IMG/VR virus record: IMGVR_UViG_3300009150_000008
Location: 1-27,096 of that record
Source: a virus
Reading direction: 5' to 3' (one strand)
DNA: 27,096 nt
Part shown: piece by piece, positions 2,585 to 7,205 of the stretch
How the letters are laid out: every line of letters begins with the position of its first letter
Numbering within the stretch: position 1 is the stretch's first letter
Translations under genes and position numbers: made by a program
Notes under the pieces: model-generated
Databases searched by the model: none
What the model was told of the DNA's origin: nothing
The model's input: the letters and a program-made list of their open reading frames with translations, nothing else

Positions 2585-2663
2585 GGTAAGCAGCCCAGGT
2601 CAGCAGTAAGCTGAGATTAATGAGGCCGAGGGCTAATGTCGACATCCCTGGGCCATGCTTACC
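2585..2663 (+). ncRNA. Candidate structured RNA with a multi-branch fold
   Basis: GGTAAGCA (2585-2592) and GCCCAGG (2593-2599) pair with TGCTTACC (2656-2663) and CCTGGGC (2647-2653), with a 2-nt bulge, giving a 15-bp closing stem. Inside lie TCAGC-agtaa-GCTGA (2600-2614), ATTA/TAAT with GCC-gag-GGC (2616-2637), and the palindrome ATGTCGACAT (2636-2645). GACATCC (2641-2647) can alternatively pair with GGATGTC (2665-2671). No ORF covers it. It begins about 40 nt after the tRNA and ends about 20 nt before an SD. It does not match tRNA layout, and I recognise no known family. Confidence 0.55.
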
Positions 2664-2694
2664 CCGGATGTCAACCCCACGTTAGGAGACTGAT

Positions 2695-4742: not shown

Positions 4743-5283
4743 ACATTGTATAAAATGTAATGAAGATAAAGTCCCCAGTAGATTTCATAGAGATGAACGA
4801 TATAAAGATGGTCGAAGTTCTTATTGCAAAACTTGTCATAATAAGGTAGCTCTTAAACATTCAAAAACAGAAAAGGGAAAAAAGACAAAAAATAAAGCCC
4901 AGAAAAAATATCGAAAAACGAAAAAGGGGAAGAGAACACAGCAAAGGTATTATGGACGGCATCCAGTTGAAAGCGTTAAAGGTCCTGTATTGGTTAAACA
5001 TAAAAATAGTATCTTAAAGAGAAAATACGGAATAACTCTTAAAGAATATGAACAAATATTCAAAGCCCAAAATGGAGTTTGTGCTGTTTGTGGCAATCCT
5101 GAAAACCAAATAGATAAGAGATATGGCACTAAGAAAAGATTAGCAGTTGATCACGATCATAAAACTGAAAAAGTAAGAGGTTTACTGTGCATGAATTGTA
5201 ATTGTCTTCTCGGAAAGATACAAGATAATCCCACGTTATTAAGAAGTGTTATAAATTATTTAGGTTGCTCTGTGACAAGTTAA
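4732..5283 (+). CDS. Free-standing HNH endonuclease, endonuclease VII family
   Basis: The 183-residue protein has an N-terminal four-Cys finger (C6, C9, C32, C35), a long Lys-rich linker (KTEKGKK, KTKKGKR repeats), and the endonuclease VII core: YGITLKEYEQIF, a CAVC pair (117-120), the catalytic DHDH at 140-143, and CMNC (153-156). Known for the family: zinc-stabilised HNH fold cutting DNA junctions or acting as a homing endonuclease. Its base composition is more AT- and Lys-rich than its neighbours. It is inserted between terminase subunits, overlapping the small one by 11 bp and ending 2 bp before terL. Start at ATG 4732 (AAGGGG upstream). A homing role is inferred. Confidence 0.88.
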   Translation: MVLKHCIKCNEDKVPSRFHRDERYKDGRSSYCKTCHNKVALKHSKTEKGKKTKNKAQKKYRKTKKGKRTQQRYYGRHPVESVKGPVLVKHKNSILKRKYGITLKEYEQIFKAQNGVCAVCGNPENQIDKRYGTKKRLAVDHDHKTEKVRGLLCMNCNCLLGKIQDNPTLLRSVINYLGCSVTS

Positions 5284-5285
5284 GA

Positions 5286-7205
5286 ATGGTAGATATAGCC
5301 GAAAAACTTCGACCTGAACTTCGGACTCCTTTTCCTGACGTACCCGAATTTTGGACTTGTTCAAGAACTGGACTTGTTGTTCCCAAGAGAACTGTGGCTA
5401 ATCTTAATTATCGAACAGAAATTTTGAAAGATACTGAATATGATAAAGGTTTTCAAAATGATTTGATGGCTGCAAGTGCAGAATCTCTTTTATTCTGGAT
5501 CAATACATTTTGTTTTACGTTTCATCAATTCGATGTTGAGGGCAGTACCGGGGAACGATATGAATCGAAAGAAGCATATCATCCGTTTATATCCTGGGAG
5601 ATTCAGGATGTTCTATTCGAGCGTTTGATTTGGCACCTCGCCAATGCTAAGGACATCTTGATTAACAAATCTCGTGATATGGGTGCAAGCTGGATGTGTG
5701 CTATATTCTTACATTGGCTTTGGTTATTCAGACCCAATTCACAACTTCTTGAATTATCAAGGACTGAACCTTATGTCGACCAACCCGGAAATTTAAAGGC
5801 ACTTTTCCAAAAACACGACTTGTTGAATATTTTCTTACCTGATTGGATGAAACCACCTCAGTGTGCAGTGGGGCAGAAATACCGTACCAAGATGCACCTG
5901 TATAATACTCTCAATGGTTCGTGTATTGACGGGGAATCAACGACCGAGCATGCTGCATCTGGTGATAGACGTTTAGTTGCTTTGTTAGATGAGTTTGCAA
6001 AAGTAAAACATGGTCGGTTGATGAGAAGTGCAACGAGGGATGCTGCTTTAGTGCGTATAGTCAACAGCACTGTAAGCGGTCCGGGGACTGAATATTCTAA
6101 ATGGAAAAATGATGGTACGATAGTTGTATTCCCATTATTATGGTGGGATCATCCAGAAAAAGGCCTTGGTCGCCATGTAGTTCAAGATTCAGTGACAAAC
6201 GCCTATAAGATCAGATCACCCTGGTATGATGCAGAATCAGAAGTCAGATCACCACAGGAAATGGCAAGGGAAATCGATGCTAATGACCTTGAGGCTGGTT
6301 CGACATTTTTCACTGTCACGAATATTGAGAAACACATAGCGATATTCGGTCGCCCACCTAAGACATGCTGGGATGTGGATTTCGTAAGAGGGATAGCAAA
6401 CGATAGTATCCCGATGATCCTGAAGAAGAAGGATCTGAAGAAGGTGGCGTGTAAACGAACAGTTAAAGGCAAACTCAAGATCTGGGTTAATCTGATAAAT
6501 GGCAGGTTGGACCAAAATCTTGATTATGTTATTGGTTTCGATCTGTCCAAAGGGCAAGGTGCCTCTAATTCAGTTGGATCGATTAAGTGTCGGCAGACTG
6601 GTGAGAAGGTAGGTGAGTGGGCTGATGCTAATACACCACCATATGAGATGGCTCGTGTTGGGATGGCTTTGGCATTATGGATAGGTGGTAGGAAGAAATT
6701 ACCGTTCTTGAAGTGGGAGATGAATGGTGATCCTGGTTTTGATTTTGGTAGGTTAGTTGTTAAAGTTTTTCATTATCCGTACTATTACAGGGACGTTAAG
6801 GTCGGTAATATTAGGGATAAGAAAACTAAAAAGTATGGCTGGCATAACAATGCGAAGTCTAAAGGTGAGCTTCTCAATGCGTATGATCGAGCGTTGGCTC
6901 ATGGTGGTTATCTGAACCACTCGATCAAAAGTTTAGAGGAAGCAAAAACTTATATTTATAATGATGATGGATCTATAGGCCCGGCATGTTTAGTAGAAGA
7001 AAGTTCATCTGCTAAAAAAACTCATGGAGACAGAGTAATGGCGGACGCTTTGACTATAGAAGACAAATATTATAAATTAAGGGCAGGAAGAGAATCATCA
7101 GAGGCACGAAACGATATGAGAACAGCAGCGGGACGCAAAGCAGCGTTGAAGCAGAGACGTGCCAAGCCGAGAGGATGGCGGTCGAAATTTGATTTTAGAG
7201 GATAG
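5286..7205 (+). CDS. terL: Terminase large subunit (packaging ATPase/nuclease)
   Basis: This protein powers DNA entry into the procapsid and cuts the concatemer. Motifs seen in 639 residues: a variant Walker A, KSRDMGASW (128-136), Walker B LVALLDE with Asp235-Glu236, and the RNase H-like nuclease domain with Asp419 in GFDLSKG, an acidic patch at WEMNGDPG (477-484), and Asp582 in HGDRVMADAL. The C-terminal tail is very basic. A start at ATG 5286 gives length in the normal range; the TTG 21 bp upstream lies inside the HNH gene. HNH genes flank it on both sides. Confidence 0.95.
   Translation: MVDIAEKLRPELRTPFPDVPEFWTCSRTGLVVPKRTVANLNYRTEILKDTEYDKGFQNDLMAASAESLLFWINTFCFTFHQFDVEGSTGERYESKEAYHPFISWEIQDVLFERLIWHLANAKDILINKSRDMGASWMCAIFLHWLWLFRPNSQLLELSRTEPYVDQPGNLKALFQKHDLLNIFLPDWMKPPQCAVGQKYRTKMHLYNTLNGSCIDGESTTEHAASGDRRLVALLDEFAKVKHGRLMRSATRDAALVRIVNSTVSGPGTEYSKWKNDGTIVVFPLLWWDHPEKGLGRHVVQDSVTNAYKIRSPWYDAESEVRSPQEMAREIDANDLEAGSTFFTVTNIEKHIAIFGRPPKTCWDVDFVRGIANDSIPMILKKKDLKKVACKRTVKGKLKIWVNLINGRLDQNLDYVIGFDLSKGQGASNSVGSIKCRQTGEKVGEWADANTPPYEMARVGMALALWIGGRKKLPFLKWEMNGDPGFDFGRLVVKVFHYPYYYRDVKVGNIRDKKTKKYGWHNNAKSKGELLNAYDRALAHGGYLNHSIKSLEEAKTYIYNDDGSIGPACLVEESSSAKKTHGDRVMADALTIEDKYYKLRAGRESSEARNDMRTAAGRKAALKQRRAKPRGWRSKFDFRG

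Follow-up and report, generated by a model that had tools for sequence, protein, structure and literature searches.

A conserved RNA structure with compensatory changes lies 5′ of the late operon in a group of uncultured phages, part of the evidence coming from one divergent homologue (L053) that was aligned by hand. Its base-paired arms form a clamp that is conserved in sequence, bulges and position among the sequences compared, while the interior that they enclose is freely replaced. The window, the whole stretch of DNA analysed here, is a virus record of 27,096 bases with a large terminase gene at 5265–7205. The same phage genome carries protease-like and endonuclease VII-like genes and a tail/virion protein, and the terminases of named phages are only distant from its own (<60% identity, <80% coverage). 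In the ORF list, long ORFs lie right of ~2.7 kb on the + strand; left of this point there are short ORFs only, the likelier ones on the − strand. As the preliminary description of this DNA had placed it, the element lies between tRNA-His (2472–2546, matched by both ARAGORN and Rfam) and the first late ORF. Its low z-score, its presence in nine distinct relatives, the compensatory changes and the absence of an Rfam family bear out the proposal that it is an undescribed structured RNA.

The 87-nt segment at 2585–2671 folds with an MFE of −34.7 kcal/mol (z −3.34), and none of 200 shuffles folded as well, in agreement with the earlier claim of a fold beyond chance. That description had also named the outcome that would speak against a structured RNA, a z-score near zero with no covariation among relatives; what was found is this low z-score and compensatory changes. 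With flanks added the z-score is −2.2 to −2.4 (separate shuffles), and a predicted fold of the entire leader keeps the element hairpin unbroken. The reverse strand of the segment folds about equally well, by symmetry.

The clamp consists of two 7-bp helices separated by an A/CAU internal loop, with a 2-bp outer helix beyond a CC bulge. On the + strand, the P0 5′ strand (CT, 2583–2584) pairs with GG at 2666–2667 across the CC bulge (2664–2665), an A following at 2668. The nearly invariant P1 5′ strand (GGTAAGC, 2585–2591) pairs with GCTTACC at 2657–2663, and the P2 5′ strand (GCCCAGG, 2593–2599) pairs with CCTGGGC at 2647–2653, the first and last P2 pairs covarying as GC/GU/AU. The closing stem described earlier is present in these two helices (2585–2591/2657–2663 and 2593–2599/2647–2653), with 14 Watson–Crick pairs rather than the 15 claimed. 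The internal-loop A (2592) faces CAU (2654–2656); it is A in 10/10 core sequences and U in L053, and CAU is kept in 9/10 core sequences, with UAU in L074. The P0 pairs are C-G/U-G in the core group and A-U and U-A in L053, where P1 changes A-U to G-C and U-A to U-G. Between the arms lies the hypervariable interior (2600–2646), whose inner hairpins and palindrome are private. The two inner hairpins singled out as features in the preliminary description are conserved in no distinct relative. Both the palindrome ATGTCGACAT and an alternative pairing with downstream sequence, GTCGACATCC/GGATGTCAAC, do exist in the window, but they are private to this phage and kept by no distinct relative.

Relatives were drawn from a terminase search, which gave 59 viral loci. 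Besides the window, the element occurs in nine distinct sequences (L003, L005, L011, L013, L016, L017, L019, L026 and L074), L012 being the same as L011 and L002 identical to the window contig. Most of the relatives' elements have z-scores of −3 to −5.7. A covariance model built from the carriers found one copy per record and no others, and scored a decayed copy in L004/L084 at 26.8 bits. The L053 leader, from the group L027/L098/L109 (terminase identity 69%), holds a divergent homologue, GGTAGGCTACCCAGG...GGATGCCTGCC, which was recognised by eye, is unreported by the covariance model and has a z-score of only −1.0 alone.

The core set of ten sequences (the window and the nine distinct relatives) shows pairing in 96.9% of cells and two pairs changed on both sides; its covariation score, reached by 26/500 shuffles, is only suggestive because most clamp pairs never vary. 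Adding L053 brings the pairs changed on both sides to five, with 0/500 shuffles reaching the score and slid controls giving none. The L053 arms were hand-aligned to the structure, so this result leans toward the structure, and a 3-nt GAA insertion in L005 was left out. The statistical case for covariation leans on this one divergent relative. Read on the + strand, the variant cells of the core set comprise nine G·U against one A·C, an excess that indicates + strand RNA; the nine cells are not nine independent events, the sequences being related. This orientation agrees with the direction of late transcription.

No Rfam family accommodates the element, in line with what had been claimed. Against Rfam release 15, the window gives only tRNA-His at threshold, a relaxed threshold adding one chance-level match, and the relatives give only the tRNAs of L034; no family in this release shows a likeness to the element. 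Nothing describing it was found in open PMC papers, and the listed hits in named phages covered no part of the query but the tRNA. Divergent relatives, scanned in the R1 search, yielded hits at chance level only. Pattern hits in L067 and L069–L072 occur in other contexts, without the leader arrangement, and spread beyond the phage group was rejected. The suggestion of a decoy resembling a tRNA is not supported, since the element itself has no Rfam or ARAGORN tRNA match and no conserved link to a tRNA. ARAGORN found no tRNA in the element-bearing relatives scanned, save the identical contig L002, which places the tRNA outside the conserved arrangement.

A putative late promoter block, GATAATTAAGGCTGATCTCTCGGTAGTATAGAAGG (2340–2375, + strand), with a −10-like TAGTAT at 2363–2368, is conserved 5′ of the leader in an alignment of 16 relatives, among those that carry the element and those that lack it alike. 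A simple consensus promoter scan also returned TTGAGA-17-GATAAT at 2317–2345. The element lies ~25–220 nt past the putative transcription start, and the first ORF follows directly. In every carrier it stands between the putative late promoter and the first late gene; because this gene is not the same in all phages, the element is a feature of the start of the operon, not of any particular gene. Of the roles proposed earlier, a regulatory RNA and a processing signal both stay candidates; the constant position at the start of the late operon speaks for a leader that acts in cis.

In the window, the first late ORF (68 aa, 2695–2901, + strand) has an apparent ATA start at 2695–2697, against ATG in relatives, with AGGAG 6 nt upstream and the first in-frame ATG at 2752. 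The ATA may be a rare start codon, translation may start at 2752, or the gene may be damaged. The module CAACCCCACGTTAGGAG (2672–2688, + strand), which includes the Shine–Dalgarno AGGAG (2684–2688), precedes several small late ORFs in relatives. Modules of the CAACCCCACGTTAGAGAGGA type stand 5′ of several small late ORFs in the window (2672–2688) and in many relatives, and resemble a portable ribosome-binding boundary. Further upstream, TGTTAGATAATCACTTAACA (~2198–2218 in the window) is nearly unchanged in the whole group, element present or absent; this imperfect palindrome could be an operator. A terminator scan gave a chance-level result only. Just 5′ of tRNA-His, the stretch 2388–2468 (TAAGCGGCCCAGG...CCCCTGGATAAGCTTA) resembles the element, with a 12/13 direct repeat, and is possibly a decayed copy; it was rejected as a second copy, being missed by the covariance model and having a z-score of only −1.9.

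Measured from CCCAG to CTGGG, the core interiors are 49, 39, 32, 31, 43, 36, 41, 31, 48 and 37 nt long. These lengths mix all three frames modulo 3, so the arms are not in one coding frame, and a coding interior was rejected. A mini-ORF starting from the ATG inside CATGC, often ending at or fusing with the next ORF, was dropped because the adjacent frame, inspected by eye as a control, behaves much alike. Taken alone, the interiors mostly fold like shuffles (window z −0.25), the exceptions being L005 (z −3.1) and L003 (z −2.3). Two carriers from one metagenome (3300048497), L026 and L074, have flanks that agree at 265/280 positions upstream and 237/272 downstream. Their 5′ arms are identical and their 3′ arms differ at 2/22, yet the two interiors, of 48 and 37 nt, are no more alike than shuffles; an assembly chimera is a possible source of this difference. 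L005 and L011, distant on the tree, have similar interiors. No interior proved to be an inverted copy of another, and flipping of the interior by way of the arms was rejected.

The presence of the element is patchy. No element was found in L007/L008, L009, L010, L014/L015 or L044, though the promoter block is present there, and this absence together with the decay in L004 indicates that the late operon can work without it. An apparent empty allele, TTTTATGCCCTGGAG, is seen at L044:3909–3930, where L005 has its element between TTTTAT and CCCTGGAG. On the terminase tree, several nodes of which are weakly supported, carriers and non-carriers are interleaved, with the L053 form outside. This distribution suggests that the element is old in the phage group and was lost several times, and hence is not essential, although recombination may have shaped the pattern instead.

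Our preferred reading, to which we give not quite even chances, is a cis-acting 5′-leader RNA of the late transcript, with put-like antitermination or 5′-end protection as its likeliest role. Late transcription would start at the upstream promoter and carry the element near the mRNA 5′ end, where the conserved clamp (P0, bulge, P1, internal loop, P2) would form soon after the start. A protein, or RNA polymerase itself, would then recognise the clamp, most probably with the effect that elongation is modified or the mRNA end protected. The interior would be a mere spacer and therefore free for exchange between phages, and we infer that interiors are swapped through recombination at the conserved arms. 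A clamp kept in sequence, bulges and place around a free core fits a cis-acting signal on nascent or mature late mRNA. The interior looks spacer-like because it has mostly no structure, and in the three records searched no antisense target, above shuffles. Counting against this reading are the chance-level terminator scan, the relatives whose late operon lacks the element or has only a decayed copy, and the weak covariation of the ten core sequences taken alone.

The put RNAs of phage HK022 may be the closest known way of working, by analogy. These RNAs (putL and putR) are ~70 nt long and lie just or ~270 nt downstream of a promoter (PMC9378689). They have two stem-loops, belong to early operons and bind the RNA polymerase beta′ zinc-binding domain (PMC9378689). 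Like put, the element would be a phage nascent leader RNA of ~70 nt near a promoter at the start of a long operon; its position relative to the putative late promoter fits such proximity. In contrast, the element has one clamp, a hypervariable interior and a late leader. Because it forms one clamp hairpin with a mostly unstructured interior in place of two stem-loops, we do not file it as a put RNA.

The main rival is an RNA-processing or mRNA-stability hairpin, either an RNase III-type site or a 5′-end shield, acting with no dedicated regulator. In favour of this model, the stem has ~14–16 bp and an asymmetric internal loop and is followed immediately by the first ORF; T7-type RNase III hairpins likewise carry such a loop before phage genes. 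Unrelated strong leader hairpins in L022 (z −3.6) and L155 (a long stem) also speak for it. However, a generic hairpin should need neither near-invariant arms nor a fixed A/CAU loop, and we know of no T7-type RNase III processing hairpin that keeps the sequence of both arms nearly invariant. The element also differs from these hairpins in being single-copy and at the operon head. We regard this explanation as unlikely, if still plausible. Strong leader hairpins were sought across the divergent relatives, and no general rule emerged. At L022:1755–1812 the layout is similar (two stems and an internal loop) in the same place with another sequence (z −3.6), and L155:3084–3190, of unrelated sequence, has a ~19–20 bp stem and a roughly 60-nt loop just 5′ of the first ORF. 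Another conserved and possibly structured late-leader stretch without an Rfam match (L019:361–460, L026:1085–1175 and the L074 leader) reads GAGGYGGGAAACYCACCCUYAUGGGCCAACUGCCU... and has CUACA/UGUAG against CCGCA/UGCGG. The L017:488–548 leader (GGATAGT...GGTTCGACTCC...ACTATCC) looks like a tRNA remnant with an acceptor stem and T-arm.

The variable interior could instead be a payload. In one version, which we consider improbable, the clamp is a scaffold for a trans-acting RNA and the interior is a specificity segment that serves immunity, anti-defence or the targeting of hosts and is under selection for diversity. The c4 and CI antisense immunity RNAs of P1, P7 and P4 base-pair with complementary sequences in the genome that encodes them; like the element, they are small, structured, leader-derived phage RNAs with segments differing between relatives. 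The complete replacement of the interior between L026 and L074 with the arms kept, and the similar interiors of the distant phages L005 and L011, are consistent with such a role. However, no complementary target was found for the element interior: in the window and in the greater part of the L005 and L016 records (those for the window and L005 being incomplete), duplex scores did not exceed the mean for shuffled interiors, and antisense pairing with its own genome was rejected. The element also has no Rfam match. There is also no conserved loop or seed and no sign of a separate 3′ end. In the other version, likewise improbable, the clamp would display a hypervariable, exchangeable RNA segment at the late-transcript head, selected for diversity so as, for example, to escape or disarm a factor of the host or of a rival phage; this would be the RNA counterpart of variable-region display. 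The failure to find any target weighs against a variable payload carried by a constant scaffold.

Translational control, in which the clamp partly hides the Shine–Dalgarno (CCGGAG) of the first late ORF until a ligand or ribosome opens it, has little probability in our view. The equivalent CCGGAG at the 3′ edge of the element can also be read as the next ORF's Shine–Dalgarno in several relatives, standing just before the start codon in L003, L013, L019, L026 and L074 (CTGGAG in L005). However, the window, L011, L016 and L017 have a separate Shine–Dalgarno module with the clamp equally conserved, and the downstream gene varies among phages. Just as improbable is a DNA-level element, with the inverted repeats as a recombination, operator or mobile site and the RNA fold a by-product. 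The near-perfect inverted repeat of the arms, the patchy presence, the replaced interior and the empty allele in L044 accord with it, whereas the G·U-biased variants on one strand, the conserved asymmetric bulges, the single copy and place per record, the lack of inverted interiors and an exact-pattern scan of bacterial genomes that returned 0 copies argue against it. A cos/pac site or phi29-type packaging RNA was rejected on the patchy presence despite similar terminases and the non-conserved interior.

Our analysis adds an RNA element that has not been catalogued before and that goes with the late operon in a group of uncultured phages. A frozen clamp with a freely replaced core is an unusual pattern for a cis-acting RNA. 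Should the element act on transcription, it would represent a new antitermination signal that needs one protein or none; should the core be a payload, the element would count as a hypervariable phage RNA. The two strain variants within one sample make the question of function testable.
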